Below are positions 6,629 through 32,464 of a stretch of 33,307 nucleotides of DNA, piece after piece. Under the pieces are notes generated by a model. It was not told where the DNA came from, searched no databases, and was given only the letters and a program-made list of their open reading frames with translations. The stretch's first letter is position 1. Every line of letters begins with the position of its first letter. The stretch covers positions 1 to 33,307 of the forward strand of contig JAFWTG010000027.1 of assembly GCA_017519005.1 (NCBI GenBank), written 5' to 3'. A program made the position numbers and the translations under genes. The stretch comes from Oscillospiraceae bacterium (GTDB taxonomy: Bacteria > Bacillota > Clostridia > Oscillospirales > Oscillospiraceae).

Positions 6629-6656
6629 GGCATCAGGCAATAGGCATCAGGCATCA
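6629..6656 (+). repeat. Heptad array, unit GGCATCA x4
   Basis: Four 7-base units: GGCATCA, GGCAATA, GGCATCA, GGCATCA. Read on the minus strand the unit is TGATGCC, the same as the array at 6945-6972. The two arrays therefore face each other across 290 bases of repeats. Confidence 0.78.
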
Positions 6657-6669
6657 GGGGACGGGGGAC

Positions 6670-6706
6670 GCGGATTGCCACGGGCCGTACCGGCCCTCGC
6701 AATGAC
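6670..6706. repeat. Short dispersed-type palindromic element
   Basis: Outer complementary pentamers ATTGC (6674-6678) and GCAAT (6699-6703) enclose an inner hairpin GGGCCG-TAC-CGGCCC (6682-6696). From memory this shape (GGATTGCCAC...TCGCAATGAC) is a common intergenic repeat in clostridial genomes; that is recollection, not a search. Confidence 0.55.
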
Positions 6707-6773
6707 AGAAACGGGATGTTTCCCGCCGGAGGAGGCGGCGTCCTCGACGCCCCGCGCGGTCCCGTCCGCAAAA

Positions 6774-6814
6774 CCTCCCCTGCCAAGGGGAGGGGGACCG
6801 GCCGCAAGGCCGGT
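6774..6814. repeat. Tandem double-hairpin element
   Basis: Hairpin one is CCTCCCC (6774-6780) with GGGGAGG (6787-6793). Hairpin two is ACCGGCC (6797-6803), a GCAA loop and GGCCGGT (6808-6814). They lie three bases apart. Neither is followed by a T-tract, so this is not a normal terminator. Confidence 0.6.
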
Positions 6815-6841
6815 GGAGGGGTCTGCTCCCGCCCGGACGAA

Positions 6842-6895
6842 TGAATAATGAATAGTGAATAGTTGTGGAATCGTTCAAATAGCCATTTGAACGAT
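6842..6895 (+). repeat. Heptad array TGAATAR x3 followed by an 11-bp hairpin
   Basis: Units TGAATAA, TGAATAG, TGAATAG (6842-6862), then TTGTGGA and a perfect 11-bp hairpin (6870-6880 with 6885-6895, loop AGCC) built on TTCAAAT/ATTTGAA. Each unit carries TGA and, being 7 bases long, shifts it by one frame, so stops occur in all three frames. The same order, heptads then TGYGG then a TTCAAAT hairpin, recurs at 18131-18188 and in weaker form at 29655-29709. Confidence 0.75.
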
Positions 6896-6913
6896 GGAAA
6901 TGAAATGGACGCG

Positions 6914-6936
6914 GCCGGCAGATTGCCGGCGCTACA
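6914..6936 (-). repeat. Single REP-like hairpin, minus orientation
   Basis: On the minus strand: TGTAGC then GCCGGCA-ATC-TGCCGGC. Against the arm at 3423-3445 it differs only by one swapped base pair in the stem (G to C on one side, C to G on the other), which keeps the fold. Confidence 0.75.
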
Positions 6937-6944
6937 GGCGGGTC

Positions 6945-6972
6945 TGATGCCTGATGCCTGATCCCTGAACTC
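6945..6972 (+). repeat. Heptad array TGATGCC x4 (degenerating)
   Basis: Units TGATGCC, TGATGCC, TGATCCC, TGAACTC. It ends 61 bases before gpsA. It is the inverse of the array at 6629-6656 and shares the TGATCCC unit with the array on the tilS stop (32444-32464). I see no clear promoter for gpsA in 6973-7033, only an AAAGGA ribosome site. Confidence 0.75.
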
Positions 6973-7033
6973 GAAGAGTCACGAAGTATGCCTTTTATCA
7001 ACCTTCCATTGCAAAGAAAGGACGTATCGAATC

Positions 7034-8041
7034 ATGCAAATCGCCGTCGTCGGCAGCGGCGGATGGGGCACGGCCCTGTCCATGCTGCTGCATGAAAACC
7101 GTCATGAGGTCACGCTGATTTCCTGGTCCGAGGAAGAGAGCCGGAATCTGGCCGAGACGCTGGAGAACCCCTTTCTGCCCGGCGTGAAGCTGCCCGAGGA
7201 TATGGGCTACACCGCCGACCCCGCCGCCGTGGCGGAGTGTACGCTGGTGGTGGTGGTCCCGCCCTCCTTCGCCATTCGCTCCACCGCGGAGCGCATCGCC
7301 CCCTATCTGCGCCCCGACGCGATCCTGGTCTCCGCCACCAAGGGCATCGAGCCCGACACCGGCAAGCGGATGTCCGAGATCGTCTCCGAGGTCACGGGGA
7401 AGAAGGTCGTGGTCCTCTCCGGCCCCTCCCACGCGGAGGAGGTCAGCCGCCGGGTGCCCACCGGCGTGGTGGCGGCCTGCGAGGACCGGCTCCTGGCGGA
7501 GATCGTCCAGGAGGTCTTTATGAACGACCACTTCCGGGTCTACACCTCCTCCGACCCCCTGGGCGTGGAGCTGGGCGCGGCCATGAAGAACGTCATCGCC
7601 CTCTGCGCCGGCGTCTGCGACGGCCTGGGCTACGGCGACAACACCAAGGCCCTGCTGATGACCCGGGGACTCACCGAGGTGGCCCGGCTGGGCATGAAGC
7701 TGGGCTCCCGGACCGACACCTTCGCCGGCCTTACCGGCATCGGCGATCTGATCGTCACCTGTACCTCCATGCACTCCCGCAACCGCCGGGCGGGTATTCT
7801 GATCGGCAACGGCATGAGCCCCGACGCCGCCATGAAGGAGGTCGGCGCGGTGGTGGAGGGCTACTACGCCACAAAGGCCGTCAAGCTGTTGGCGGACCGC
7901 ATCGGCGTGGACATGCCCATCACCCAGGCCGCCTACAAGGTCCTCTACGAGGGCGCCCCCGTGGGCTCCGCCCTGGCCTCCCTCATGACCCGCAAGAAGG
8001 GCCGCGAGATCGAGGACGCCGGCTGGACTCCCCGCCCGTAA
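7034..8041 (+). CDS. gpsA: NAD(P)H-dependent glycerol-3-phosphate dehydrogenase
   Basis: A 335-residue enzyme that reduces dihydroxyacetone phosphate to sn-glycerol-3-phosphate for phospholipid synthesis. The N-terminal Rossmann fold opens with VVGSGGWGTALS (residues 5-16), followed by ATKGIEP near 100 and LSGPSHAEEV near 135. The helical C-terminal domain carries AAMKNVIALCAG, whose Lys (about 184) is the catalytic lysine, then GDNTKALLMTRGL. Length matches the family. The ATG is preceded by GAAAGGA at 12 bases, a slightly long spacing. It follows der-plsY, so acceptor supply and acylation are neighbours, but the repeat island probably separates the transcripts. A terminator follows 22 bases after the stop. 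Confidence 0.97.
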   Translation: MQIAVVGSGGWGTALSMLLHENRHEVTLISWSEEESRNLAETLENPFLPGVKLPEDMGYTADPAAVAECTLVVVVPPSFAIRSTAERIAPYLRPDAILVSATKGIEPDTGKRMSEIVSEVTGKKVVVLSGPSHAEEVSRRVPTGVVAACEDRLLAEIVQEVFMNDHFRVYTSSDPLGVELGAAMKNVIALCAGVCDGLGYGDNTKALLMTRGLTEVARLGMKLGSRTDTFAGLTGIGDLIVTCTSMHSRNRRAGILIGNGMSPDAAMKEVGAVVEGYYATKAVKLLADRIGVDMPITQAAYKVLYEGAPVGSALASLMTRKKGREIEDAGWTPRP

Positions 8042-8063
8042 AGGCGCGGAAAGAACAAGGACC

Positions 8064-8104
8064 CCGGGCCCGCATCGCAAAAACGCGATGCGGGCCCGGC
8101 TTTT
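8064..8104 (+). terminator. Terminator after gpsA
   Basis: A perfect 15-bp GC-rich stem (8064-8078 with 8085-8099), six-base loop, then CTTTT. It lies between convergent genes; the minus-strand gene ends at 8142. Confidence 0.9.
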
Positions 8105-8141
8105 CATGCGGCGGCACGAATTGTAAGTTTTTCAAGCCGGG

Positions 8142-10598
8142 TCAGGGTACCGGCGCGTCGGGGGGAGGCAGCGCATCGGGATAGGCCTCCAAAGCGTCCC
8201 AGCTTTCGACTGAGATCTCAATCCCGCCGAAACCGTTCAGATAGATCATGCCGGTTTCCGGGTCCTCCCAGTTAAAGAAGAGGCAATACCGGCCGTCCCG
8301 TTCCGCGGAATAGACCGCCCGCTCCCCGCCGGGCTGCCGGAAGCAGACGGCGCCCTCTTTGAGGGTATAGGCCTGGCCTCGCGTTTGCTCCGCAAGCTCG
8401 ACCAGCCCCTGCAGCCCGGCCTCGGCAGCGACGCCGTCCATGGTGACCGTCAGCAGCCTGCAGTCCTTGGTGAACCAGCAGAGCTTGGGCGTGGGGTCAT
8501 CCGTCTCAAAGTGGCGCGGCCCGAGACGCTTCGTCAGCGCCTCCGCGGAAAGCCCAAGCAACTCGGCGGGCTTCGGCGCTTCAATGGCCTCGATGCCCTG
8601 CATGGCGCAGAAATACGTTCCGTCCTGCAGGGGCTCCCAGCGCAGCAGACCCGTCACCGTCACGCCGTTTTCTGTGACCGCGGCGAAGACCCGCTGCCCG
8701 GCTGTGGGAACGGAGGAGCCCGTGACCTGGGGCCAGACCAGGCAGGCGCTGGCGTACAGAGGCAGACGGGGGATACCGCTCTGGGCGGCTGCCTCCCGGG
8801 CGATTGCGTTTATCTCCGTGAAGGAGCGGCCGTACCAGGTCCATTCCGGCCCGCCCCAGAGCTCGCAGCCCTCGGGCAGTGCGCCGCCGTTCAGCAGCAG
8901 CTCGCCGTCCTGAAGGGATACGGAAAGGATCTGCTCCGCCTGGGGGACGGTGCTGCCCGCCGCCGGGTCGAAGCGCTGCGGGGTATAGTGGAGCAGAACC
9001 CTTCCGCCCTCCTCCGCCAGCCGCAGCTCGCCCCAGGTCAGAGTGTAGATCTGGGCGGCCTTCAGAACCGGCCAGCCCGCCTCCAGGCCGTAGACGCAGA
9101 GCCCCGCGGTGAAGAGGCCCGAGGTGGGACCGTCGCACCAGTAGACCAGCTCCCGGAAGCCGTCTCCGTCCAGGTCGGCCCAGACCGGGTCATGAAGCTC
9201 GCTGCCCATGTAGAGCAGAGCCTTTACGGCCCCGGCGGGTCCGGCGATCCGGGGCGTTCCCTCCGCGTCCCGGCCCGCCGGCATGGGCTGATAGCCGTCC
9301 GGGGGCTGTGTCGGCTCCGGCTCGGTCTCCGTCGGGTCCGTGGCCTCGGATACGGGCTCCGTGGTGCTCTGCGGCAGCTTGGAGCGGGGGAAATCCGCCA
9401 GCCAGGCGGAGTCCACCGCCGGCACCAGGACGGCGGTGCAGTCGGTGTACAGGGCAATGTTCCAGTTGTCGGGCACCCAGAAGCGGTAGAAGGGGAGCAG
9501 GGTATCCCGGGAATCCGCAGGCAGATAGACCAGCTCGGCGAGCTCCAGGCTCTCCGGGGCCGGCGCGAGCAGACTGCCCCGCTCGCACAGGTAATTTCCC
9601 TCCAGGACCATGCTCCGGGCCTCCTCCACGGAGATGATGGGATACGTGCCCAGCAGCTCGAAGTCCGGCGGCACGGCGCTGTGCGCGCCCGGCTGGGGCA
9701 GCCGGTCCCAGGCCAGGGCCGTGACGTGCGTGCCGTCTGCGGTCAGCAGGCGGACGGCCTCGTAGCGGCGGGACAGCAGCTGCTCCGCCGGGTCCTCCCG
9801 GACGGGATAGAGCAGGTAGCTCTGATAAGCGCCGGAAAGGCTGCTCCAATCGTCGCAGACCGCCGGATGGCACTTGGGCAGCTTCAGCATGGCCTCCACC
9901 TGCTCGCCGCAGAGGACCATGACAGCGTCCCGGTATTCCCGCTCCATTTCCTCCACGGTCAGCTCCTCGGCGAAATCCAGCTTGACTTCGGCGCTGAGCT
10001 GATGCTCCTCGTTGAAGAACACCGTAATCCCGCCCTCCAGATCGACGGTAATGAGGCCCAGCGCAGTCTGCGCCTCATAGCTTTCAGTATACAGCTTTTC
10101 GACGTCATGCCTCGGGAGAATCTCCTCCGGCGGCGCGGTTCCCAGCCGGACGGCCGCGTCCCGCACCATGGACTTCAGCTCCGCCTCCGACCAGCGGCTC
10201 CAGCCGAGCACAGGGGGATAACGCATGGGATTGCCGTAGACCGGCAGGGCTTTCGCGCCGGTTTCCAGCGTCCAGCGGTCCACGGCCAGGGAACGCGCCG
10301 GATCGTCCAGCTTGCGGACCGCCTCGTCGGCATAGCTGCCCACGGAGAGCAGGGGCAGCCCGCCCTCCGGGGCTGGCGTCAAGGCGGTGTCGGACGCCCC
10401 GGGCAGGGCGGGGGATCTGCCGGCGAGCATCTGTTTCAAAAGCAGGAAGCCGCCCAGGCCCACGGCCAGGACCAGCACGGCCGCCGCGGCGGCCCCGATC
10501 CAGGGGCGGCGTTTCCGGACCAGGACGTTCTGATCGGCGGCGGCCAGCAGATCCTCGCCCACCTGGTCCAGACTGTCGAGCAATTCTTCGGGTTTCAC
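8142..10598 (-). CDS. Large membrane-anchored protein, probable anti-sigma factor partner
   Basis: An 818-residue protein starting at GTG 10598, overlapping the sigma-factor stop by four bases (GTGA) with GAGGAGG upstream. An in-frame ORF continues far upstream, but only as a shadow of the sigma gene. Layout: a 30-residue cytoplasmic head (EELLDSLDQVGEDLLAAA), one transmembrane helix (about 33-55) preceded by RKRR, a long extracytoplasmic part, a Thr/Glu/Pro-rich linker near 440-470 (TEPVSEATDPTETEPEPTQP), then an FG-GAP/VCBS-like calcium-loop motif DLDGDGFRELVYW near 510 and an unrecognised C-terminal region. A short head plus one helix coupled to an ECF gene fits clostridial anti-sigma factors. 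The sensor function of the ectodomain is inference; I recognise no ligand domain. Confidence 0.75.
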   Translation of the reverse strand: MKPEELLDSLDQVGEDLLAAADQNVLVRKRRPWIGAAAAAVLVLAVGLGGFLLLKQMLAGRSPALPGASDTALTPAPEGGLPLLSVGSYADEAVRKLDDPARSLAVDRWTLETGAKALPVYGNPMRYPPVLGWSRWSEAELKSMVRDAAVRLGTAPPEEILPRHDVEKLYTESYEAQTALGLITVDLEGGITVFFNEEHQLSAEVKLDFAEELTVEEMEREYRDAVMVLCGEQVEAMLKLPKCHPAVCDDWSSLSGAYQSYLLYPVREDPAEQLLSRRYEAVRLLTADGTHVTALAWDRLPQPGAHSAVPPDFELLGTYPIISVEEARSMVLEGNYLCERGSLLAPAPESLELAELVYLPADSRDTLLPFYRFWVPDNWNIALYTDCTAVLVPAVDSAWLADFPRSKLPQSTTEPVSEATDPTETEPEPTQPPDGYQPMPAGRDAEGTPRIAGPAGAVKALLYMGSELHDPVWADLDGDGFRELVYWCDGPTSGLFTAGLCVYGLEAGWPVLKAAQIYTLTWGELRLAEEGGRVLLHYTPQRFDPAAGSTVPQAEQILSVSLQDGELLLNGGALPEGCELWGGPEWTWYGRSFTEINAIAREAAAQSGIPRLPLYASACLVWPQVTGSSVPTAGQRVFAAVTENGVTVTGLLRWEPLQDGTYFCAMQGIEAIEAPKPAELLGLSAEALTKRLGPRHFETDDPTPKLCWFTKDCRLLTVTMDGVAAEAGLQGLVELAEQTRGQAYTLKEGAVCFRQPGGERAVYSAERDGRYCLFFNWEDPETGMIYLNGFGGIEISVESWDALEAYPDALPPPDAPVP

Positions 10599-11149: not shown

Positions 11150-11216
11150 GGCGACCGCCTCCTTCCTGGTCTTCTCACCCTATCAGACGCAAACAAGGGA
11201 AAAAGCTTGCAGGTAT

Positions 11217-11245
11217 AGTTTATCATTTTTCCCCGCTTTTTTCAA
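11217..11245 (-). promoter_or_regulatory. Candidate promoter for the sigma/anti-sigma pair
   Basis: On the minus strand TTGAAA (11245-11240), a 17-base spacer and TAAACT (11222-11217). The leader to the TTG start is about 60 bases. The -10 box is imperfect. Confidence 0.5.
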
Positions 11246-11254
11246 GATTCACAC

Positions 11255-12596: not shown

Positions 12597-14333
12597 ATGA
12601 ATTACCATATGGGTATTTCCGCACAGGCCCCCTGGCTGAAGTTTTACGGCGACACGCCCCGGCATCTGGACTATCCCCGGCTGACGATCTATCAGATCGT
12701 CCGGCAGACAGCCCGGGAGCATCCCAACCTGGTGGCCTACGAGTTTATGAATAAAGAGACCACCTACGCGCAGTTTATGCAGCGGATCGACAGCACCGCC
12801 CGGGCTCTGAAGGCTCTGGGCATCGGCAAAGGGGACCGGGTCACCATCTGCATGCCCAACTGCCCCCAGGCCCTGGACACCTTTTACGCCCTGAACCGCA
12901 TTGGCGCCGTGTCCAACATGATCCATCCCCTTTCCGCTCCGGCGGAAATCGCCTTTTATCTGAACTTCTCCCATTCCAAGGCCATTCTGACCCTGGACCA
13001 GTTCTATCCCAAGCTGGAGGAGATCCGGGACCAGCTGGAAAACCCCGTGAAGGTGCTGATTGCCTTCATCAAGGACGAGCTGCCGGCCCCCCTGAATCTG
13101 CTTTACCCCATGACCAAGGCGGCCCGGAAGGTGCCCAAGCTTCCCAAAGGGGGCGACTACATCCTCTGGCGCGACTTCCTGCGAGGCGCGGGGAAGATAG
13201 ACGAGCTGCCCCCGGAGGACGTGATGCAGAGCCGGGAGGGCGCCTCCATCCTCTACTCCGGCGGCACCACCGGCACCACCAAGGGCATTCTGCTCTCCTC
13301 CGACAACTTCAACGCCACCGCCCTGCAGACCATCGCGGCCTCCGGCCTGCCCAGCATCGTCAACAAGAAGATGCTGTCCGTGATGCCCGTATTCCACGGC
13401 TTCGGCCTTGGCATCGGCATCCACACCGCTCTGGTGGGCGGCGCCCGCTGCATTCTGGTACCGCAGTTCAACGTGAAGACCTACGCCCAACTGCTGGTGA
13501 AGAAGAAGCCCAATCTGATCCCCGGGGTCCCCACCCTCTTTGAGGCGCTGCTGCGGACGGATCTGCTGGAGGGGACGGATCTGAGCTTCCTGGACGGCAT
13601 GTTCTCCGGCGGCGACTCCCTCTCCATCGAGCTCAAGCGCAAGGTGGACGCCTTCCTGAAGGCGCACAAGGCGAAGATCCAGATTCGCGAGGGCTACGGC
13701 ACCACGGAGTGCGTCACCGCCTCCTGCCTGACCCCCAAGGACTACGCCCGCTCCGGCTCCATCGGCGTTCCCTTCCCGGACACGTATTATAAGATCGTCA
13801 CCCCCGGCACCGAGGAGGAGATGGAGCCCAACATCGAGGGCGAGATCTGCATCTCCGGGCCCTCCGTCATGATGTGTTACGTGGACAACCCGGAGGAGAC
13901 CGCCCAGACCCTTCGCCGCCACGCGGACGGGCGGATCTGGCTCCACACCGGCGACCTCGGCACCATGGACGCGGACGGCTTCGTCTACTTCCGCCAGCGC
14001 ATCAAGCGCATGATTATCACCTCCGGCTACAACGTCTACCCCAGCCAGCTGGAGAATATCATTGACGGCCACGAGAAGGTCCTGCTGTCCTGCGTCGTGG
14101 GCGTCAAGGACAAGTACAAGATGCAGAAGGTCAAGGCCTTCGTGGTCCTGCGGCCCGGCTTCGAGCCCACGGACGAGGTCCGCGGCGAGCTCATGGATTA
14201 CTGCCGGAAGCGCATCGCCAAGTATGCCATGCCCTGCGAGATTGAGTTCCGGGACGAGCTCCCCAAGACCCTGGTGGGCAAGGTGGCCTATCGGGTCCTG
14301 GAGGAGGAGGCCAACGCCCAGGCCGACACGTAA
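12597..14333 (+). CDS. AMP-forming acyl-CoA synthetase (ANL superfamily)
   Basis: A 578-residue adenylate-forming enzyme that activates a carboxylic acid as acyl-AMP and passes it to CoA. Core motifs: YSGGTTGTTKG (A3, about 220-230), EGYGTTEC (A5, near 366), LHTGDLG and RIKRMIITSGYNVYPSQLE (A7-A8), and the C-terminal PKTLVGKVAYR with the A10 lysine near 562. The A8 hinge and length fit fatty-acid or aryl-CoA ligases; the substrate cannot be read. The start ATG follows GCGAG, a weak ribosome site. It is the first gene after the palindromic promoter and probably heads the 12597-18146 operon with two acyltransferase-like proteins. A ligase feeding those enzymes is plausible but inferred. Confidence 0.93.
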   Translation: MNYHMGISAQAPWLKFYGDTPRHLDYPRLTIYQIVRQTAREHPNLVAYEFMNKETTYAQFMQRIDSTARALKALGIGKGDRVTICMPNCPQALDTFYALNRIGAVSNMIHPLSAPAEIAFYLNFSHSKAILTLDQFYPKLEEIRDQLENPVKVLIAFIKDELPAPLNLLYPMTKAARKVPKLPKGGDYILWRDFLRGAGKIDELPPEDVMQSREGASILYSGGTTGTTKGILLSSDNFNATALQTIAASGLPSIVNKKMLSVMPVFHGFGLGIGIHTALVGGARCILVPQFNVKTYAQLLVKKKPNLIPGVPTLFEALLRTDLLEGTDLSFLDGMFSGGDSLSIELKRKVDAFLKAHKAKIQIREGYGTTECVTASCLTPKDYARSGSIGVPFPDTYYKIVTPGTEEEMEPNIEGEICISGPSVMMCYVDNPEETAQTLRRHADGRIWLHTGDLGTMDADGFVYFRQRIKRMIITSGYNVYPSQLENIIDGHEKVLLSCVVGVKDKYKMQKVKAFVVLRPGFEPTDEVRGELMDYCRKRIAKYAMPCEIEFRDELPKTLVGKVAYRVLEEEANAQADT

Positions 14334-14334
14334 A

Positions 14335-14362
14335 CGAAAAATGAAAAGCGAAAAACGAAAAA
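14335..14362 (+). repeat. Heptad array CGAAAAA x4 overlapping the next gene's start
   Basis: Units CGAAAAA, TGAAAAG, CGAAAAA, CGAAAAA begin one base after the TAA stop of the acyl-CoA ligase (14331-14333). The ATG at 14341 of the next gene lies across the first two units, so its N-terminal residues (KSEKRK) are encoded by the repeat. Confidence 0.8.
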
Positions 14363-15090
14363 CCGAGGAACCGATTACCGGGATTTCCAGGGGGCGGATT
14401 TGGGAGATTGACGCGATCCGGGGCCTTCTGATCCTCTGCGTCATCGCGTCGCATACTCTCTTTTACGCCGCCAACATCCTGCGGCGGATCAGCCTGCCCC
14501 AGAGCATCGTCTTCATCATGCAGTACGGCGGCCTGCTCTTCGTGGTGCTCTCCGGCTTCTCCGCCACCCTGGGCCGCCGGAGCCTCCGCCGCGGTCTGCT
14601 GGTCTTCGCCGGTGGAATGATCCTGACCCTGGGCTCCGTGCTGGCCGTTCACTTCGGCTGGCTGACGGAGGATATGATCATCCGCTTCGGCGTTTTGCAT
14701 CTGCTGGGCCTGTGCATGATGCTCTACCCGCTGCTGAAGAAGCTGCCCACCCCGGCCCTGCTGGGCCTGGGGCTGGCGGTGGTCGCCGTGGGCTACTGGT
14801 GGGAGCTGAAGAGCGTCACGGTGGAGGCAAAGTACCTCTTCCCCCTGGGTCTGCGCTATCCGAACTTCAGCTCCGGCGACTACTTCCCCCTGGCGCCCCA
14901 CCTGGGCTGGTTCTGCCTGGGCGCGGTCCTGGGCCGCAGCCTCTACGCGGAGAAGAAGACCCGGCTGCCGCAGATCAATCCCGAGACGCCGGTCCTCCGC
15001 TTCCTCCGCTGGTGCGGCCGGAATTCCCTGTATATCTTCATTTTGCATCTCCCTGTCGTCGGCGGCGTGATGATGCTGCTTTCCACGTAG
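14341..15090 (+). CDS. DUF1624/HGSNAT-like membrane acyltransferase
   Basis: A 249-residue integral membrane protein with about seven hydrophobic spans. It opens with RIWEIDAIRGLLILCVIASHTLF (about residues 20-42), the first-helix signature of DUF1624/heparan-alpha-glucosaminide N-acetyltransferase-like proteins, with the conserved His in or near the first helix. The end, GRNSLYIFILHLPVVGG, is also typical. In the family an acyl group is passed across the membrane to a sugar amine; the bacterial substrate is unknown. The start is ATG 14341; no good ribosome site is visible because the upstream DNA is the heptad array, so the first ~18 residues may be an acquired extension. The same frame runs open further upstream, inside the ligase gene, but that is a shadow. 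Confidence 0.85.
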   Translation: MKSEKRKTEEPITGISRGRIWEIDAIRGLLILCVIASHTLFYAANILRRISLPQSIVFIMQYGGLLFVVLSGFSATLGRRSLRRGLLVFAGGMILTLGSVLAVHFGWLTEDMIIRFGVLHLLGLCMMLYPLLKKLPTPALLGLGLAVVAVGYWWELKSVTVEAKYLFPLGLRYPNFSSGDYFPLAPHLGWFCLGAVLGRSLYAEKKTRLPQINPETPVLRFLRWCGRNSLYIFILHLPVVGGVMMLLST

Positions 15091-15142: not shown

Positions 15143-16054
15143 GTGTCGAAACGAGAAAAAATCCGCCGGGGAGATCGGCGGGACGGCGTCTGGCTGCGGG
15201 AAGAACCCGCCATGAATCAGTTCACGGCCTATCTCTACCCCAACCGGGCCGATAACGAGGCCTACATCAACGAGGAAATCGATCTGCGGCCCATCGAGGC
15301 CTATCTGGCGAAGAAAAACGAGGGCCGGACCCAGGACAAATATACCTATTTTCACGTCATCTGCGCCGCCGTGGTGAAGGCCTTCGTCCTGCGGCCCAAG
15401 ATGAACCGCTTCATCTCCGGCAACCGCCTCTATCAGCGCAATTATCTCTCCGTGGCTTTCGTGGTGAAGAAGAAATTCTCCGACCGCTCCGAGGAGGGCC
15501 TGGCCTTCCGCAAGTTCGAGGCGGACGCCACCATTGACAAGCTTCACGACAGCCTCTGCCAGGAGATTCACACCCAGCGCAAAGAGAGCCAGGTGGACAA
15601 CTCCACCTACTTTATGGGCAAGCTGCTGAAGCTGCCCCGCTTCGTCCTGCGGCAGATCATGAAGCTTCTCTTCAGCCTGGACCGGAAGGGCAAGGTTCCC
15701 TACGAGCTCATCAAGGAGGACCCCAACTATTCCTCCATCTTCCTGACCAATCTGGGCTCCATCGACCTGAGCTGCGGCTATCATCACCTCTCCAACTGGG
15801 GCACCTGCTCCTGCTTCGTGGTGATCGGCAAGCGGCATCTGGCGCCGGAGTGCCATGAGGACGGCTCCGTCACGGTCCGTCCCGTCATCAACATCGGCAT
15901 CACCCTGGACGAGCGCATCGCCGACGGCTACTACTACTCCAAGACCATGAAGCTGGTCAAGCATCTGCTGGCCCACCCCGAGCTGCTGGAGCTCCCCGCC
16001 GGCGAAGAGGTAGACTATCTGCCCAAGGACGACAGGCGCTTCACGAAGGAATAA
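15143..16054 (+). CDS. Stand-alone 2-oxoacid dehydrogenase E2-like (CAT-fold) acyltransferase homologue
   Basis: A 303-residue protein resembling the catalytic domain of dihydrolipoyl acyltransferases (chloramphenicol-acetyltransferase fold). There are no lipoyl or peripheral-subunit-binding domains, and no E1 or E3 genes nearby, so it is not part of a pyruvate-dehydrogenase-type complex. The start is GTG 15143 after AAGGA. FHVICAAVVKAFVLRPKMNRF (about 70-90) and SIFLTNLGSIDL are family landmarks. The active-site motif, HRxxDG in true E2 enzymes, reads DERIADGYY here (about 255-263), so the catalytic His is replaced by Glu. The protein may use other chemistry or be non-catalytic. It probably works with the ligase and membrane acyltransferase upstream; this is inference. 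Confidence 0.82.
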   Translation: MSKREKIRRGDRRDGVWLREEPAMNQFTAYLYPNRADNEAYINEEIDLRPIEAYLAKKNEGRTQDKYTYFHVICAAVVKAFVLRPKMNRFISGNRLYQRNYLSVAFVVKKKFSDRSEEGLAFRKFEADATIDKLHDSLCQEIHTQRKESQVDNSTYFMGKLLKLPRFVLRQIMKLLFSLDRKGKVPYELIKEDPNYSSIFLTNLGSIDLSCGYHHLSNWGTCSCFVVIGKRHLAPECHEDGSVTVRPVINIGITLDERIADGYYYSKTMKLVKHLLAHPELLELPAGEEVDYLPKDDRRFTKE

Positions 16055-16119
16055 GTAAGAAGTAAGAATTAAGAATTAAGAAATATCGACACGTTTACCT
16101 GTTCCTTATTACCTGTTCC
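16055..16119 (+). repeat. Heptad array GTAAGAA/TTAAGAA x4 plus 14-base repeats
   Basis: Starting on the base after the TAA stop (16052-16054): GTAAGAA, GTAAGAA, TTAAGAA, TTAAGAA (16055-16082), so TAA recurs every 7 bases and falls in all three frames. Further on, TTACCTGTTCC occurs twice (16095-16105, 16109-16119) with a 14-base period, again a multiple of seven. Confidence 0.8.
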
Positions 16120-16866: not shown

Positions 16867-17433
16867 ATGCACCCGATCAAGCATTTCAAGACCATCACAA
16901 AGCACCGCCACCTGGTCATGGGCTATTGCATCCGCGTGGGCCTGGTCCGGCAGGGCCTCTGCCACGATCTGAGCAAGTACAGCCCCACGGAGTTCTGGCA
17001 GGGGGCCAAATACTGGCAGGGCACCCGCAGCCCCAACGCCAGGGCCCGGGAGGCGGAGGGCTATTCCACCGCCTGGATGCACCATAAGGGCCGCAACAAG
17101 CACCATTACGAATACTGGACGGACGTGCCTCCCGGCGAACACGACTACAAGCCCGTCCCCATGCCCACCCGCTATCTGGTGGAGTCCGTTCTGGACCGGA
17201 TCGCCGCCTCCAGGGTCTACCGGGGCAGGGACTACGCCGACGGCGACGCCCTGGCCTATATGGCCCGGGAACGCGCGCAGGAAAAGCTCCATCCGGAGAC
17301 CTACGCGAAGATACACTTCCTGCTGACGCTGCTCCGGGACAGGGGAGAGGATGCGCTCTTCCGCTTCCTCCGGGAGGTCGTGCTGAGAGAGGTCCCCTAC
17401 GGGCAGTGGGAGGAAAGGAAGAAGCAGATCTGA
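16867..17433 (+). CDS. DUF5662 family protein
   Basis: A 188-residue protein matching the DUF5662 pattern: an N-terminal HFKTITKHRHLVM, then GLCHDLSKYSPTEF (about residues 36-49), HHKGRNKHHYEYW near 76 and a C-terminal helical region (KIHFLLTLLRDRGE). The clustered His and Asp residues resemble metal-dependent HD-type phosphohydrolases, but I cannot show the full motif, and the function of the family is unknown. It starts five bases after the glycosyltransferase stop, and its TGA overlaps the next ATG (TGATG), so it is tightly coupled on both sides. Confidence 0.82.
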   Translation: MHPIKHFKTITKHRHLVMGYCIRVGLVRQGLCHDLSKYSPTEFWQGAKYWQGTRSPNARAREAEGYSTAWMHHKGRNKHHYEYWTDVPPGEHDYKPVPMPTRYLVESVLDRIAASRVYRGRDYADGDALAYMARERAQEKLHPETYAKIHFLLTLLRDRGEDALFRFLREVVLREVPYGQWEERKKQI

Positions 17434-18146
17434 TGATCACCATCAAGCTCGCCGGCGTCAACGTCGGGATTGAGAATCGAAACGATTTTACACACAGAGT
17501 CCGGGACTGGCTCACGGAGGCGCAGCCGGATTTCACCGTCCGGGTCAGCCCGGAGGAGCTGGCGCGGGAGGATCATGGTCGGGGTCTGCCCGAAAACTAT
17601 CTGGAATACGTCTGCGCCTATCGTCACATCGCGGAGCGGATGCCGGACTATGATGCCTTCGTCTTCCACGGAGCCGCCGTCGTGGTGGACGATCTGGCGT
17701 ATCTCTTCACCGCGCCCAGCGGCACCGGCAAGACGACGCACGTCCGGATCTGGCGCGGCGTCCTGGGCCAGAAGGCCTGGATTCTGAACGGCGACAAGCC
17801 CATCCTGCGCCGGACGGACGCGGGCTTTACGGTCTGCGGGACCCCCTGGCGCGGCAAGGAGAAGCTCGGCGAAAACGCCGAACGGCCCGTCCGGGGCATC
17901 TGCCTGCTGCGGCGCGGCAGCGAGAACCGCATCGTGCCGGCCGAGCCTGCCGAGATGGTCAGCTTCCTGACCCGCCAGATCTACATTCCGCAAGCTCGTG
18001 AGCAGGCGGATAAGCTGCTGGGGCTCCTGGATGAATGCTGCCGGACCGTCCCAATCTGGTCCATGCGCTGCACCCGCGAGCCGCAGGCCGCCAACGTGTC
18101 CTACGAAGCCATGCGGCCCGCTTCGCGAATGAAAAATGAAGAATGA
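17433..18146 (+). CDS. HPr-kinase-like P-loop protein (ScmC/PEPCK-like)
   Basis: A 237-residue protein with a central P-loop, FTAPSGTGKTTHVRIW (about 93-108), placed after FHGAAVVVDDLAYL, and followed by ILNGDKPILR. This order is that of HPr(Ser) kinase-like and PEPCK-like proteins (ScmC/PqqD-associated type) rather than of a true HprK, since the HprK N-terminal domain and signature are missing. The start is taken at ATG 17433 with GGAAAGGAAG upstream and a TGATG overlap; an in-frame ATG at 17406 would lie in the previous gene. The last residues (KNEE) and the stop codon are encoded by a heptad repeat array, so the natural C-terminus has probably been replaced. Substrate unknown. Confidence 0.8.
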   Translation: MITIKLAGVNVGIENRNDFTHRVRDWLTEAQPDFTVRVSPEELAREDHGRGLPENYLEYVCAYRHIAERMPDYDAFVFHGAAVVVDDLAYLFTAPSGTGKTTHVRIWRGVLGQKAWILNGDKPILRRTDAGFTVCGTPWRGKEKLGENAERPVRGICLLRRGSENRIVPAEPAEMVSFLTRQIYIPQAREQADKLLGLLDECCRTVPIWSMRCTREPQAANVSYEAMRPASRMKNEE

Positions 18147-18188
18147 AAAATGAAAAATTGCGGAGTTTTCAAATTGCCATTTGAAAAC
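18131..18188 (+). repeat. Heptad array GAAAAAT x4 with 10-bp hairpin
   Basis: Units GAAAAAT, GAAGAAT, GAAAAAT, GAAAAAT (18131-18158), then TGCGGA and a perfect 10-bp hairpin (18165-18174 with 18179-18188, loop TGCC) built on TTCAAAT/ATTTGAA. The upstream gene ends inside the second and third units (TGA at 18144-18146). It has the same composite plan as 6842-6895. Confidence 0.82.
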
Positions 18189-24551: not shown

Positions 24552-24558
24552 AATGAAG

Positions 24559-27184: not shown

Positions 27185-29161
27185 ATGGAACGTTCGGTCA
27201 AGCGTCTGCTGCGCAACGAGGCCTATATGTTTGCCGCGGCGCTGGTGATTTTCGGCGGCGTGGCCGCCGCCCGGAGGGACTACTGGTTTGCCGCCGCCCT
27301 GGCTGCCGCCGCGGTGACGATTCTGCTGATCAGCATTGCCGTTTCCCGGCAGCGGGTGAGAAGCGTCGCCGCCAGCGTTCAGTCCGCGGTGGACAATCTC
27401 AGCCGCTCCGCCTCCGTCACAGCCCCCTGGCCCATGGCGGAGGTCCGGATGCTGGACGGTGAGATCCTCTGGCACAACCACCAGTTCCAGAAGGCCCTGA
27501 ACACCGTGGAATCCCGCGTGGGAGAGCCCATCGGGCAGGTGCTCCCCGGCCTGCGGCTGGACTGGCTGAAGTCCGGGCAGACCGAGGCCCCCGAGGAGCA
27601 GCAGATCCGGGAGCGGCGCTTCCGGACCCTGGGCTTCGTGCCCAGGCACGACAACGGCCCCGAGGCCGTCGCCCAGCTGCTTTGGATCGACAGCACCGAG
27701 CTCCTGGAGACCCGCGACGAGTATCTGCGCTCCCGGCCGGTGGTCTCCATCATTCTCATCGACAACTACGACGAGCTCACCAATAATCTCAACGATTCCG
27801 GCGTCTCCAATCTGAACGCCGCGCTCAACGAGCGCATCAGCGCCTGGGCGGAGAAGATCGGCGGCCTGTTGCGGAAGCTGGAGCGCAACCGGTTCCTCTT
27901 CATCTTTGAAGCCAAGGACCTCTTCCGGATCACCGAGGGCAAGTTCTCCCTGCTGGAGAGTGCCCGGGAGGTGACGAGTCCCAGCGGCATCGCGGCCACC
28001 ATTTCCTTCGGCGTGGGCAAGGACGGGGCCAACATTCAGGAGAACTACGATTTCGCGGCTCTGGCCCTGGAAATGGCCCTCTCCCGCGGCGGCGATCAGG
28101 CTGTCATCAAGGACAAGTACGACTTCAGCTTCTACGGCGGCCGCGCCGTGGAGACCGAGCGCCGCAGCAAGGTCAAGTCCCGGGTCATGGCCTCCTCACT
28201 GACGGCCCTGATCCAGCAGGCCAGCCGGGTCTTTCTCATGGGCCACCGAAACGCCGACGCCGACGTGATCGGCGCGGCCTGCGGCGTTGCGGCGCTCTGC
28301 CGGAGTCTGGGTAAAAAGGCCAATATCGTGGTGGACCGCTCTGCCAACTCCGCCCCGAAGCTGCTGGACCTGATCCAGAAGGAGCCCCAGTACGAGGACG
28401 TCTTCCTCTCCGGCCAGGACGCGCTGATTCTGGCGGACGCCAAGAGCCTGCTGGTGGTGGTGGACACCAACCGCCCCGAGCAGGTGGAGAGCCGGGAGCT
28501 GCTGGACTCCATCAGCCGGGTGGCGGTCATCGACCACCACCGTCGGGCCGCCGACTACATCTCCAACGCGGCGCTGAACCTCCATGAGCCCTTCGCCTCC
28601 TCCGCCAGCGAGCTGGTGACGGAGCTGCTGACCTACACGGTGGACGCCAAGACCATCCTGCCCTGCGAGCTGGCGGCTCTGATGGCGGGCATCGTGCTGG
28701 ACACCAAGAACTATACGGTCCGGGTCAACAGCCGGACCTTCGAGGCCGCGGCCTTCCTCCGCTACCAGGGCGTGGACCCGGTGGACGTGAAGCGCCTCTT
28801 CCAGAGCGGCTTTGAGGAGACGGTCCGCCGCTACCGGGTGATCGAAAACGCCCGGGTCTACCGCGGCGATATCGCCATCACCGCCGCCGACGAGGAGGTC
28901 AGCCGGCCGATGGCGGGCCAGGCGGCGGACGAGCTGCTGAGCATCGACGGCATCCACGTCTCCTTCGTCCTCTTCCGCCAGCAGGACGCGGTCTTCATCT
29001 CCGCCCGCTCCGTGGGCACGGTGAACGTCCAGGTCATTCTGGAGTCCCTGGGCGGCGGCGGCAACGCCGTCACCGCCGGCGCCCAGCTCAAGGGCGTCAG
29101 CATGGACGAGGCAAAAGCCAGGCTGATTACAGCCATCGACAACTATTTCAACGAGGAATAA
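27185..29161 (+). CDS. gdpP: Cyclic-di-AMP phosphodiesterase GdpP
   Basis: A 658-residue membrane protein, almost exactly the length of Bacillus GdpP/YybT. Two transmembrane helices (about 10-55) are followed by a PAS-like domain (about 75-145), a degenerate GGDEF domain (about 165-300) and the DHH/DHHA1 hydrolase. The metal-binding motifs are [14 protein letters not shown] near 352, VVDTNRPEQ near 423 and [11 protein letters not shown] near 447; DHHA1 ends with [11 protein letters not shown] near 622. It should cut c-di-AMP to pApA and so set potassium, cell-wall and osmotic balance. The start is ATG 27185 after GGGGTGAGG; an in-frame ATG at 27125 lies too close to the -10 box. It precedes rplI-dnaB, a common Firmicute order. 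Confidence 0.95.
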
Positions 29162-29210
29162 CCCAGCGGAGACCGGTATCGTCTGGCTCCGCACAGAAAG
29201 GAGAATATCT

Positions 29211-29657
29211 ATGAAAGTGATACTGACGCAGGACGTTCGCGGCCAGGGAAAGAAGGGCGAGATGATCAACGTCTCCGACGGCTACGCCCGGAACTTCCTC
29301 TTCCCCCGCAAGCTGGCCCAGGAGGCCACTGCGGATAATATCAACACCATGCGCATGAACGACAAGGCCAAGCGCGAAAAGGAGCAGCGGGCCCGCGAGG
29401 AGGCCGCGGCCATGGCCGCGAAGCTGCGGGAGCTGACGCTGACCGTGGAGGCCAAGGGCGGCGGCGCAGGCCGGCTCTTCGGCTCTGTCACCAGTCAGGA
29501 GATCTCCGACGCCCTGAAGGCCCAGGAGAAGCTGGACCTGGATAAGCGCAAGATCGTCATCGACGAGCCCATCAAGACCGTGGGCCTCTACACCGTCAAG
29601 GTCAAGCTGGGCTTCGGCATCGACGCGCCCCTCAAGGTCGACGTGAAAGAAAAGTAA
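29211..29657 (+). CDS. rplI: 50S ribosomal protein L9
   Basis: A 148-residue L9 with the family opening [20 protein letters not shown] and [15 protein letters not shown], the long connecting helix (about 40-75) and the C-terminal domain with [12 protein letters not shown] and the end VKVKLG. Length is normal. The ATG follows AGAAAGGAG. It sits 49 bases after gdpP; that gap can form an imperfect hairpin (GCGGAG at 29166-29171 with CTCCGC at 29187-29192). The stop codon is part of a heptad array. Confidence 0.97.
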
Positions 29658-29709
29658 AAACGAAAAAGGAAAAACGAAAAACTGTGGTGTTTTTCAAATT
29701 TCGTTTTTC
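29655..29709 (+). repeat. Heptad array (GAAAAAC-type) x4 with possible hairpin
   Basis: The rplI stop TAA opens the first unit: TAAAAAC, GAAAAAG, GAAAAAC, GAAAAAC (29655-29682), then TGTGG and TTTTTCAAATT. GAAAAACGAAA (29669-29679) is exactly complementary to 29699-29709, so the array folds back on the following T-rich stretch just before the dnaB ribosome site (GAGGTG). Confidence 0.78.
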
Positions 29710-29721
29710 CGAGGTGATAAC

Positions 29722-31071
29722 ATGCCAGATTATGAAGAATTGACGTCGAGACAACTCCCCCAATCCCTGGAGGCCGAGCAGGCCGTGCTGGGCTCCATGC
29801 TGATCGACAGCCGCTGTGTGGGCGACGTGGTGGGCATCCTGAAGCCGGAGGATTTCTACCTGCGGCAGAACCAGGAGATCTACGAGACGATCTACCGGAT
29901 GTTCAGCTACTCCCAGCCCATCGACGTGGTGACGGTGCTGGGGAAGCTGAAGGAGAACGGCTACTACGAGGAGGCCACGACGCCAGCCTACATGCGGCAG
30001 CTGATGGAGATCACGCCCACTGCCGCCAACGTCAAATACTACGCCAACATCGTCCGGGACAAGGCCCTGCTTCGCGCGCTGTGCCGAACCTCCGCGGAGA
30101 TCGGCGAGATGGCCGTCAAGGAAGAGGGGAGCGCCTCCGCCATTCTGGATAACGCCGAGCGCAAGGTCTTCGGCCTGCGCCGGGGCAACGCGGACGACGA
30201 GCTGGAGCGGATCGGCACCATCATGGTCAAGCTCTTCGGCCACCTGAACGAGCTGTCCCAGTCCGATGCGGACTTTCCCGGAGCGCCAACGGGCCTGCGG
30301 GATCTGGATAAGAAAATCAACGGTCTGAACCGGTCCGACCTCATTATCATTGCCGCCCGCCCCGGCATGGGCAAGACCACCATCGCCCTGAATATCCTGG
30401 CCAACGTGGCCAAGGCTACCCGGAAGACCGTGGCCTTCTTCTCCCTGGAAATGTCCCGGGAGCAGCTGGCCTCCCGCCTGCTCTCCTGCGAGAGCGCGGT
30501 GGACAACCACAAGCTCTCCACCGGCCGCCTGGAGCCGGAGGACTGGGAGAAGATCGGCCTGGCCTCCGCGGCCCTGGCCCAGACGGATATCCGGGTCTCC
30601 GACAACCCGACCATCTCCGTCACGGAGATGAACGCCCTCTGCCGCCGCCTGGACAATCTGGGCCTGATCATCGTGGACTACCTTCAGCTGATGACCCGGG
30701 CCGACAAGGACAGCCGCAGCGCGGAAAACCGGGTCAACGTGGTGGCGGAGATTTCCCGGGCGCTGAAGATCATGGCAAAGGATCTGGACGTTCCCGTCAT
30801 TTGTCTGAGCCAGCTTTCCCGCGCCTCCGAGAGCCGCACCGACAAGCGGCCCCTGCTCTCCGACCTGCGCGAATCCGGCGCCATCGAGCAGGACGCCGAC
30901 CAGGTCATCATGCTCTACCGCGACGATTACTACAATCCCAACAGCGCGGAGAAGAACGTCTGCGAGTGTATCGTGGCGAAAAACCGCCATGGAGAGCCCG
31001 GCACCGTCAAGGTCCAGTGGATGCCGCAGTTCTTCTCCTTCTCCGACCTGGACACGGTCCACGGGGAATAA
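29722..31071 (+). CDS. dnaB: Replicative DNA helicase DnaB
   Basis: A 449-residue hexameric helicase. The N-terminal domain begins LPQSLEAEQAVLGSMLID (about 10-27), the linker follows, and the RecA-like domain has Walker A RPGMGKTTIALNI (about 214-226), SLEMSREQLASRLLS, LIIVDYLQLM (Walker B, near 315) and LSQLSRASESRTDKRP, then DLRESGAIEQDAD. All DnaB signatures are intact and there is no intein. The ATG follows CCGAGGTG. It lies after gdpP-rplI as in Bacillus; its probable loaders are encoded about 10 kb away at 18272-20133 on the other strand. Confidence 0.98.
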   Translation: MPDYEELTSRQLPQSLEAEQAVLGSMLIDSRCVGDVVGILKPEDFYLRQNQEIYETIYRMFSYSQPIDVVTVLGKLKENGYYEEATTPAYMRQLMEITPTAANVKYYANIVRDKALLRALCRTSAEIGEMAVKEEGSASAILDNAERKVFGLRRGNADDELERIGTIMVKLFGHLNELSQSDADFPGAPTGLRDLDKKINGLNRSDLIIIAARPGMGKTTIALNILANVAKATRKTVAFFSLEMSREQLASRLLSCESAVDNHKLSTGRLEPEDWEKIGLASAALAQTDIRVSDNPTISVTEMNALCRRLDNLGLIIVDYLQLMTRADKDSRSAENRVNVVAEISRALKIMAKDLDVPVICLSQLSRASESRTDKRPLLSDLRESGAIEQDADQVIMLYRDDYYNPNSAEKNVCECIVAKNRHGEPGTVKVQWMPQFFSFSDLDTVHGE

Positions 31072-31075
31072 TCGG

Positions 31076-31110
31076 GAATTCGGAATTGAAAATTGAGAAT
31101 TGAGAATTCT
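31076..31110 (+). repeat. Heptad array GAATTGA x5 between dnaB and tilS
   Basis: Units GAATTCG, GAATTGA, AAATTGA, GAATTGA, GAATTCT start four bases after the dnaB stop and end three bases before the tilS ATG. TGA recurs every 7 bases, in all three frames. The array takes the place where the tilS ribosome site would be; only GAG/AGAA-type pieces of the repeat are available. Confidence 0.85.
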
Positions 31111-31113
31111 ATT

Positions 31114-32460
31114 ATGGAAGAAAAGGTCTTTCGGTATATCCGGGAGAACGCTTTACTGGAGGCGGGCGACGACGTGACCGTGGCTCTGTCCGGCGGGGCG
31201 GATTCCGTGGCCCTGCTCCGGGTGCTGCGGGTACTGGCCCCCAGGCTGGGGATTACGCTGCGGGCGGCCCACTTCCACCACGGCATCCGGGGCGCGGAGG
31301 CGGACCGGGACGCGGCGTTCTGCCGCGCCCTGTGCGTCGGCTGGGAGATTCCCTTTTCCCTGGGCCGGGGCGACGCGCCCGCCCGGGCGAAGCAGAGCGG
31401 CGAGAGTCTGGAGGAGGCCGCCCGGATCCTGCGCTACGAATTTTTGCAGCAGACCGCGCCCGGCAAAATCGCAACGGCCCACAACGCCGACGACAACGCG
31501 GAAACCCTGCTGCTGCATCTGATTCGGGGGACCGGCCCCCGGGGTCTGGGCGGCATCCCGCCCCGGCGGGACCGCATCGTTCGCCCGCTGCTGAGCTGTA
31601 CCCGGGCCGAGATCGAGGCCCTGCTGGAGCGGGAGGGCCTGCCCCACGTGGAGGACGGCTCCAACGCCTCCGACGACTGCCTCCGCAACCGCCTGCGCCA
31701 CCGGGTCCTGCCCCTGCTGCGGGCGGAGAATCCCGGTCTGGCCCGGACCCTGGGCCGGACTGCCGCGCTGGTCCGGGCGGAGGACGAGTACCTGTCCCGC
31801 CTGGCCGCCGCCGCGGCGGCGGCCTGCAAATCGGAGGCGGGCTGGTCCTGCGGGCAGCTGCTGGCCCTGGACCCGGTGCTGCGCCGCCGCGTTCTGCTGG
31901 GCATGCTGCGGGAGCTGGGGTTGGAGAACCCCTCCTCCGTATACGTGGAGGCTCTGGAGGAGCTGCTGCGCGGGGGACCCTCCGCGCAGCTCCGGCTGCC
32001 GGGCGCCGTGACAGCCTTCCGGGAATACGACCGCCTTCGCTTCGGACCCGCAAAAGCGCTTCCGGCTCTGCCCCGGACGCCGCTGGCAATCCCCGGCAGG
32101 ACGGTCCTGCCCGGCGGAATGGGGGAAATCTCCTGTACCGTTACAAAAAATTCATATTTCGGCAAAAAAAACCTTACCACCTTCGCCCTGAAGTGTGATA
32201 TGATATCCGGGCGTGAGATCTGTGTCCGGGGCAGAGCCCCCGGCGACCGGCTCACGCTGCCCGGCGGCTCCAGGTCTCTGAAGGCCCTGATGATCGACCG
32301 GAAGCTCCCGGCCCGGCTGCGGGCCGCCGTTCCGGTGCTTGTCGCGGAGGACCGGCCCATCGCCGTCTTCGGCGTCGGCGCGGACCCCGCCTGGACCGCC
32401 TCCCCCGACGAGGAAGCCCTGACCGTCCGTTATCACGGTCCCCTGATTCCCGATCCCTGA
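31114..32460 (+). CDS. tilS: tRNA(Ile)-lysidine synthase TilS
   Basis: A 448-residue enzyme that adds lysine to C34 of tRNA-Ile(CAU), so that it reads AUA instead of AUG. The ATP-pyrophosphatase loop [15 protein letters not shown] is at 24-38 (SGGxDS motif), followed by [20 protein letters not shown] near 55 and [21 protein letters not shown] near 125, typical of TilS. The C-terminal domain (about 370-448) is present. The ATG at 31114 is preferred to an in-frame TTG at 31093 inside the repeat. The last residues and the stop lie in another heptad array (32444-32464). ftsH follows directly; the hpt gene often found between them is missing. Confidence 0.95.
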
Positions 32461-32464
32461 TCCC
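32444..32464 (+). repeat. Heptad array TGATCCC x3 over the tilS stop codon
   Basis: Units TGATTCC, CGATCCC, TGATCCC. The third unit contains the TGA stop of tilS (32458-32460), so the final residues LIPDP come from the repeat. It shares the unit TGATCCC with the array at 6945-6972. Confidence 0.72.

Follow-up and report, generated by a model that had tools for sequence, protein, structure and literature searches.

Heptamer arrays between the genes of an Oscillospiraceae contig

The DNA considered here, called the window in what follows, is the 33,307-nucleotide contig JAFWTG010000027.1 (GenBank assembly GCA_017519005.1; contig C28 among the 141 contigs of a 2.29 Mb draft genome, G000) of a bacterium assigned to the Oscillospiraceae. 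Its glycerol-3-phosphate dehydrogenase is 84-95% identical to those of Oscillospiraceae, Ruminococcaceae and Clostridia assemblies, many of them named as rumen-derived. Pfam assigns plsY, gpsA, rplI, tilS and ftsH types, among others, to its protein genes; the gene at 29785-31071 is taken to be dnaB from its position between rplI and tilS and from the usual gene order. Between these protein genes, and not in 23S rRNA, lie nine short tandem arrays of a seven-nucleotide unit (Table 1). It is argued below that such arrays are probably the ends of small fold-back insertions of the kind that carry a gene for the 23S rRNA intervening-sequence protein (IVP; Pfam PF05635, a four-helix bundle), and that the copies lacking this gene are derivatives resembling miniature inverted-repeat transposable elements (MITEs).

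A preliminary description made from the letters of the window alone had listed nine arrays of period seven, and Tandem Repeats Finder (TRF) places all nine at, or within a few bases of, the positions given there. The last is the weakest; it falls below the threshold of 10 of our own scan, which counts eight arrays in the window, where dinucleotide-shuffled sequence of the same genome yields 0.75 arrays per 367 kb at that threshold, or fewer than 0.1 per window-sized stretch. Six arrays had been placed at stop codons: five (arrays 4, 5, 6, 7 and 9) do touch or span one by our gene calls, but array 8 begins farther off, the distance shrinking to ~5 nt only if a degenerate first unit, discerned by eye, is counted. 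The units had been thought all different, but arrays 1 and 3 carry a single unit in opposite orientations. These two, which enclose array 2, form the only clear inverted pair of the window; for some of the other copies just a single arm is visible. No IVP gene lies in the window, the genome's three, found with PF05635, being on other contigs. A known RNA family was considered and rejected, no Rfam match in the window exceeding the database's cut-off.

Table 1. Heptamer arrays of the window and the features that accompany them (positions in the 33,307-nucleotide stretch)
Feature	Position	Strand	TRF start	Description
Array 1	6628-6658	+	6628	~4.4 copies of the unit AGGCATC; probably the outer arm of a pair whose other arm is the reverse complement at 6944-6968; the pair lies outside the 42 neighbour pairs of the text because array 2 intervenes
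Array 2	6840-6863	+	6842	Unit TGAATAG/AATAATG; nested within the 6628/6944 pair
Class I core after array 2	6864-6895	+		TGTGG motif and hairpin ATCGTTCAAAT/ATTTGAACGAT; 6870-6880 pairs with 6885-6895, with compensatory changes across 24 distinct alignment rows
Array 3	6944-6968	-	6944	Unit AGGCATC on the minus strand; arm opposite array 1
Array 4	14332-14363	+	14332	Unit AAAAACG; its start lies within the stop of the AMP-binding enzyme gene (12597-14333); no class I core visible downstream
Array 5	16046-16082	+	16045	Unit AAGAAGT/AAGAATT; spans stop codon 16052-16054 of gene 15212-16054
Possible degenerate arm opposite array 5	16097-16119	-		By eye
Array 6	18128-18158	+	18128	Unit AAAAATG; the stop of gene 17433-18146 falls within it
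Class I core after array 6	18159-18188	+		TGCGGA motif and hairpin GTTTTCAAAT/ATTTGAAAAC (18165-18174 with 18179-18188)
Array 7	29656-29682	+	29656	Unit AAAAACG; begins within the stop of rplI (29655-29657)
Candidate core after array 7	29683-29710	+		TGTGGTG, a motif of class I type, with what may be an opposite arm (GTTTTTC, CGTTTTTCC), by eye; not among the rows of the core alignment
Array 8	31084-31108	+	31083	Unit AATTGAG; 12 nt past the dnaB stop
Array 9	32441-32465	+	32441	Degenerate unit CCCTGAT; spans the tilS stop (32458-32460); TRF score 36

Sequences sampled

Forty further stretches of the same genome were sampled, of which nine among the first 20 (8 contigs) were picked for pattern hits (L051, L052, L053, L061, L064, L065, L066, L069 and L070). 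The other 31, leaving out the window and these nine, make up a blind set of 366,694 bases (~367 kb); inverted pairs, cores, dispersed copies and unit numbers were analysed in all stretches, blind and picked, and in the window. Genes and arrays were called with custom scripts, and gene starts are rough. For IVP loci, the genus was surveyed with PF05635 (77 matches in 17 of 24 genomes; 31 loci examined), as was the phylum (60 of 299 genomes drawn; 30 loci examined). Plasmids were searched at the protein level; all 25 records obtained were examined, and of the 30 from a second search with the other IVP clade, five. These loci are not all independent: they include three near-identical Nostoc and three Planktothrix plasmids, and three of the genus junctions are represented in three species each.

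Period, abundance and position

At a score of 12 the blind set contains 45 arrays of period seven, where 20 dinucleotide shuffles give 0.0. No array has period 5, 10 or 11, and periods 6, 8, 9 and 12 yield 7, 4, 3 and 10; periods 14 and 21 appear as multiples of seven. Thirty-eight of the 45 are intergenic, in a sequence of which 17% is intergenic. These are thus dispersed intergenic 7-mers far above chance, as are the short tandemly repeated repetitive (STRR) sequences of cyanobacteria. Arrays are short, typically of three to four units (median 4.3 over 103 arrays, with four units in 47 and three in 35).

The suspected enrichment at gene ends is real but moderate, at ~1.8-fold. Counting an array as stop-proximal when it starts between 20 nt before and 5 nt after a stop codon, and placing arrays at random in the same gaps for comparison, 21 of 69 arrays in gaps beside a stop qualify in the entire sample against 11.6 expected, a number that none of 2000 placements reaches. 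With the window left out, 17 of 61 arrays qualify where 9.1 are expected (p 0.0055), and of the 38 arrays of the blind set 11 do so where 6.5 are expected (p 0.036); the window taken by itself has 4 of 8, against an expected 2.45, which is not a significant enrichment (p 0.14).

Inverted pairs, hairpin cores and dispersed copies

Many arrays face a partner. Among 42 pairs of neighbouring arrays no more than 600 bp apart, 19 match in inverted orientation (in at least 6 of 7 unit positions), while random partners give a mean of 2.65 and a maximum of 7 in 500 draws. Terminal inverted repeats that can form a stem, such as characterize 23S intervening sequences, are found both in these sampled pairs and, as described below, in the flanks of IVP loci. 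Behind many AT-rich units comes a motif of the TTGTGG or CGGAG type, with a hairpin. In an alignment of these hairpin cores (25 rows, 24 of them distinct, one, L124, being a 17-base stub), 89.3% of the cells are paired and 9 of 11 pairs vary on both sides; the stem has a covariation score of 0.319, where shuffling gives 0.139 (sd 0.017) and sliding no more than 0.088. The stem has thus undergone compensatory change.

The elements are also dispersed. Five copies of one 100-bp element lie at five loci, and homology between them is lost at or near the outer array edges; the same holds for a pair of ~230-bp copies that are 74% identical. Short, non-coding, dispersed copies with terminal inverted repeats are what the term MITE denotes. 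One element, built on AGGCAAT, has extra outer repeats, and that of array 2 recurs with variants in two relatives (L002 and L003). At L133 and L146, neighbouring inverted arrays carry their variant units in identical order (31 of 31 and 30 of 30 positions; no null was computed), which suggests that one array was copied from the other; other pairs are without this pattern.

Orthologous junctions differ in whether they hold an array. One lies between rplI and dnaB in one of 16 genomes of the genus read, namely G000 itself (array 7), and is absent in the other 15. The dnaB-tilS junction has one in 4 of 17; in the three other carriers the dnaB stop lies within the array (two) or directly before it (one). 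At the junction of array 9, over the tilS stop, one relative (L078) has a similar array. Upstream of the glycosyltransferase gene at array 5, two of eight readable genomes of the genus have an array, and within 160 nt downstream of gene 17433-18146 three of five do, with three different units. For plsY-gpsA, 2 of 31 loci examined contain arrays, besides the window, and in eight relatives that junction is only 16-48 bp long. The elements therefore come and go. The conjecture of mobile sequences in the preliminary description is borne out to this extent, with dispersed copies having common ends and with presence and absence at orthologous junctions.

IVP genes between inverted arrays

The small open reading frame (ORF) inside an inverted pair 436 bp apart at L070 was recognised as that of a four-helix-bundle protein. 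Each of the genome's three IVP genes is enclosed by inverted arrays, one of the pairs being of period eight, and in two of the three elements (L124 and L125) the class I core known from the short elements is present as well. The AGGCAAT short elements and the IVP elements built on the same unit have a common stretch inside the array (AGGAGAACGG; by eye). IVP elements thus have ends, and partly a core, in common with copies that contain no gene, although this does not make IVP a proven mobility protein.

The association extends through the genus. A period-seven array lies within 250 bp of 24 of 31 IVP loci, on both sides in 18, and a matched inverted pair encloses 17, against 1.3 (maximum 6) with permuted partners and 1 of 447 genes called in the sample of the genome itself. 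Units vary from element to element (AGGGATC, TAGGCAA, TTAGTCA, GTTCAGA, AAGTGAC and others). IVP sequence and unit sequence are weakly correlated over 27 non-redundant loci (Mantel r 0.21 and 0.27, p 0.0024 and 0.0004; L128, L141, L142 and L161, which are mis-framed, truncated or broken, were left out), but p is 0.025 to 0.29 within subgroups, and ancestry and composition could account for the correlation; it neither proves nor excludes an iteron-like recognition of sequence.

It also extends to more than one phylum. Of the 25 plasmid IVP loci, 24 have a period-seven array within 250 bp, 22 have arrays on both sides and 15 a strict inverted match (permuted partners, 2.0). In the phylum survey, arrays lie no farther than 300 bp away at 20 of the 30 loci; at 16 loci they stand on both sides and at 12 they match (permuted partners, 1.0; shifted windows, 0 of 59). 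In the five plasmid loci of the second clade, period-seven arrays were found in two and period-eight arrays in two (one weak). The fifth, from an Azospirillum plasmid (L279), lies inside 23S rRNA (Rfam RF02541), and its arms fit period seven best (18/27 and 18/24 matches; next best, 14/30 and 10/27). A test that takes no account of arrays, aligning one flank locally to the reverse complement of the other at the 99% level of shuffles, detects inverted flanks at 78 of 91 IVP loci (genus 22/31, plasmids 24/25 and 5/5, phylum 27/30). By the same score, such flanks are found for 9 of 393 control genes, for 2 of 59 shifted windows and, among flanks that are not partners, for 241 of 2420. Flanks of this last kind exceed 11.5 in 10% of cases overall and in 20% among plasmids; for permuted partners the 99% level is high, at 34.6, and only 4 of the 91 loci exceed it. 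Inverted-flank alignments were obtained for Treponema, Bernardetia, Monoglobus, Chlorohelix and Gemmatirosa.

The fold is assigned from sequence matches to the PDB entries 2gsc and 2rld. The former is XCC0516, the IVP of Xanthomonas campestris pv. campestris (Xcc), which matches L129 at 1.4e-22; a profile of 22 IVPs run against the PDB found both entries, and did not find Avd.

Relation to known repeats and intervening sequences

Among the closest known systems are the intervening sequences (IVSs) of 23S rRNA that contain an IVP (S23p) ORF. They agree with the elements described here in protein family, in a size of ~430-500 bp and in terminal inverted repeats. That of Coxiella burnetii has inverted ends, and tandem GACAGAT heptamers, of strain-variable copy number, precede its ORF (PMC4990558). 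The Azospirillum insertion has heptamer arms on both sides. The elements here differ in lying between protein genes, in having a unit of their own in each case and in abounding in gene-less copies. Among the matches listed in a search of the literature, none joined heptamer arrays with IVP genes, beyond the Coxiella case; this link is the new part of the present analysis.

STRRs, known from Calothrix, have been described as tandem repeats without a surrounding element. Like the Nostoc GGGGATT repeats, they are of period seven, variable in unit and intergenic, as are the arrays of the window. Kinship with them, whose resemblance in period the preliminary description had noted, is supported, heptamer arrays flanking the IVP genes of Nostoc, Anabaena, Calothrix and others. 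A changing unit and a position at gene ends had been taken as points of difference. Around the IVP genes of Nostoc, Anabaena and Calothrix, however, the unit also varies by locus, and a preference for sites near or over stop codons is described for the GGGAATC heptamers of Xanthomonas, which form 186 arrays in Xcc, with four units preferred and 70 inverted pairs; for the G-rich repeats of Nostoc the same report saw only a few inverted pairs, and it found no repeats of that type on plasmids of the strain studied (PMC4692102). It deals with a single unit type in Xanthomonas and interprets this as a G-quadruplex former, whereas the unit here changes between elements; Xcc, like G000, encodes an IVP (XCC0516). 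The TAACTGA direct repeats of Beggiatoaceae are heptamers in spacers, some of them over stops, for which mobility was considered, but they have one unit, lie mostly upstream of start codons and include a single inverted repeat (PMC4679880).

MITEs and REPINs, the paired form of repetitive extragenic palindromic (REP) sequences, are short, non-coding, palindromic and dispersed between genes, like the copies in the window. The ends here differ in being heptamer arrays of changing unit, and no array lies at a Y1 transposase gene. PF05635 is said to resemble Avd of diversity-generating retroelements (PMC10053308), but the one reverse transcriptase gene of the genome is without arrays and, as mentioned, the IVP profile missed Avd. 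Around the 25 IVP genes on plasmids no reverse transcriptase is annotated to a distance of 700 bp, the annotation being incomplete and no search for template and variable repeats having been made.

Interpretation

That the arrays are the ends of fold-back elements is the part of our reading of which we are most confident: a complete element of ~500 bp consists of a heptamer array, a short core, the IVP gene, a core and the array in reverse complement. That these elements are insertions of IVP type, and the gene-less copies their MITE-like derivatives, is likely. Insertions would settle between genes, often directly at a stop codon, and the short copies, including those of the window, would have lost the IVP gene or never had it. 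Whether IVP acts on the arrays is a question of a different order, and we lean slightly against an affirmative answer. To our knowledge, no role has been established for this family of four-helix bundles. If it does act, the protein might bind or process the folded arms, driving spread or upkeep of the element, and might serve gene-less copies in trans. Insertions at gene ends may survive because there the reading frame upstream soon comes to a stop and the operon is left whole. The fixed period and free unit may reflect geometry, for example a ring of IVP subunits with one unit per subunit, the units being renewed by slippage and hairpin-guided copying. The IVP of Xanthomonas is described as a pentameric ring of four-helix bundles (PMC4990558), and a ring holding the folded arms, if that is what it does, would explain why the period is constant while the unit is free.

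A more sweeping version would have one widespread selfish family of IVP-encoding fold-back elements account at once for STRRs, the Xanthomonas GGGAATC arrays, 23S IVSs and the bacterial excess of heptamers, with the pentameric ring reading the spacing of seven and the folded shape instead of a fixed sequence, so that units can vary from element to element, and with IVP moving gene-less copies in trans, stop-codon insertion being a harmless way into essential operons. Taken as a whole, this is possible but speculative, and we think it somewhat more apt to fail than to hold. Its appeal is that heptamer repeats have so far been treated as separate curiosities, several of which the link to IVP may tie together. 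If heptamer repeats and IVP belong together, the function of PF05635, the origin of the 23S intervening sequences and the excess of period seven would become one testable question, and the element would be an unusual one, in which fixed period and free end sequence are combined with one small protein, and which settles within essential operons and between cas1 and cas2.

Several observations weigh against the IVP-based reading. We know of no catalytic residue for IVP. To a distance of 250 bp there is no heptamer array at six loci of the genus (L139, L140 and L149-L152), several of which show hairpin-ladder repeats by eye, and one IVP gene of the genome (L126) is without a class I core. Many IVP loci do not pass the strict matched-array test, namely 14 of the 31 from the genus, 10 of the 25 on plasmids and 18 of the 30 from the phylum; the strict matches on plasmids are exclusively cyanobacterial, and the arms of other plasmids are visible by alignment only. 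Four plasmid IVP genes (L159, L161, L164 and L179) have a gene annotated nearby for an integrase, HNH endonuclease or DDE transposase, none of which is common to all. Array density is not correlated with IVP number in the nine readable genomes of the genus besides G000 (samples of 28 to 80 kb per genome; the four stretches of G009, with a GC of 0.00, were unreadable and left out): G000 has ~12 arrays per 100 kb and three IVP genes, while G006, G033 and G007, with 12, 8 and 7 genes, have 2.0, 3.7 and 3.7, and G032 and G034, in which no IVP was found, have 7.2 and 2.5. (In G018, G016, G001 and G013 neither was found.)

The anatomical evidence also has weak points. Direct matches between neighbouring arrays are likewise above chance (10 of 42 pairs; random partners, mean 3.1, maximum 11), and many arrays of G000, chiefly of GC-rich units, stand in direct ladders ~50 bp apart. 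In one element (L109) the two arms differ in unit. Pair types in the core stem are no more numerous than in shuffles (14 against 12.9; 160 of 500), and the rows of the core alignment were chosen for having a hairpin, six of them representing two hairpins of one element. Finally, the empty sites in relatives looked too diverged for a clear reading of target-site duplications.

What else might generate arrays of this kind? Plain replication slippage, with heptamers expanding from short matches in spacers and seven being a step favoured by the polymerase, draws some support from the suggestion of a polymerase footprint of ~7 nt (as reported in PMC4679880) and from the short and variable copy numbers. 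Slippage, which had been offered alongside mobility at the outset, can explain how units multiply, but not the matched inverted pairs, the common cores with covarying stems, the scattered copies that end at corresponding borders, or the association with IVP genes; as sole cause it is disfavoured, and we regard it as improbable. A translational stop in all three frames that protects spacers, the other early suggestion, would take advantage of the TGA or TAA in several units and of host genes that end inside arrays, and stops in all frames are somewhat more frequent in sense than in antisense orientation (20 against 13 of 65 arrays). Units with shuffled columns, however, give 22.5, so that there is no excess; the test rejects the three-frame stop as a selected trait, and it is hard to credit.

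Two other explanations have more in their favour. Elements that are short, palindromic and dispersed might be REP/REPIN or MITE sequences moved by a Y1 transposase of the REP-associated tyrosine transposase (RAYT) type or by another ordinary transposase or integrase, with IVP as passenger. The genome has three Y1 genes, and a few plasmid IVP genes do lie near an integrase or transposase gene. No heptamer array of score 9 or more, however, lies at the three Y1 loci or the one reverse transcriptase locus (0 of 3 and 0 of 1, on which grounds a RAYT or reverse transcriptase was rejected as the mover), inverted flanks are found at most IVP loci, and most plasmid IVP loci have no mobility gene annotated within 700 bp in a gene table that is, admittedly, incomplete. 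This explanation is unlikely. Rather doubtful, too, is a function at the RNA level, in which the arrays would be 3' or intercistronic mRNA elements (a terminator, an RNase III site or a stability hairpin) under selection. Position near stops and compensatory stem changes speak for it, and in the 23S insertion of Coxiella, too, heptamers lie at the RNase III site (PMC4990558). The junctions nevertheless vary between close species (rplI-dnaB, 1 of 16; dnaB-tilS, 4 of 17), and genes therefore manage elsewhere without them; moreover, no Rfam family reached its cut-off in the window. The fold-back insertion associated with IVP is accordingly the reading that we prefer.

Neighbourhoods and variants

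Some further features of the spacers and of the IVP loci deserve mention. The plsY-gpsA spacer (window positions 6560-6945) consists of several nested cassettes, GC-rich and hairpin-like, that surround the AGGCATC arms, and in two relatives (L003 and L005) the same spacer seems, by eye, to contain a small extra ORF with membrane-protein-like segments. At rplI-dnaB, five relatives (L078, L079, L080, L081 and L085) have another repeat, ladders of short hairpins with a ATGAAGTA-like linker (by eye); similar ladders lie beside the heptamer-less IVP genes L140 and L151. The arms of L125, L276 and L278 are of period eight, not seven, in an otherwise similar element.

Some IVP elements lie in neighbourhoods that look like those of gyrB, murG and asd, names given from the reading frames and not by a search. 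L126 and L146 are apparently at the same junction in two species (tentatively ftsW-murG), with IVP elements of different units, indicating either a hot spot or a replacement. On cyanobacterial plasmids the IVP gene lies between cas1 and cas2 (L169 and L170) or beside cas1 (L178); elsewhere, as annotated, it is beside DISARM drmD and methylase or MmeI-type genes (L172 and L174), between hsdS and hsdR types (L173) or between cas10 and a cmr3-type gene (L276). In phages there are two weak matches to IVP. One contig, C150 of genome G311, has four consecutive IVP genes ~1.3-1.6 kb apart, a row that suggests tandem growth of the element.

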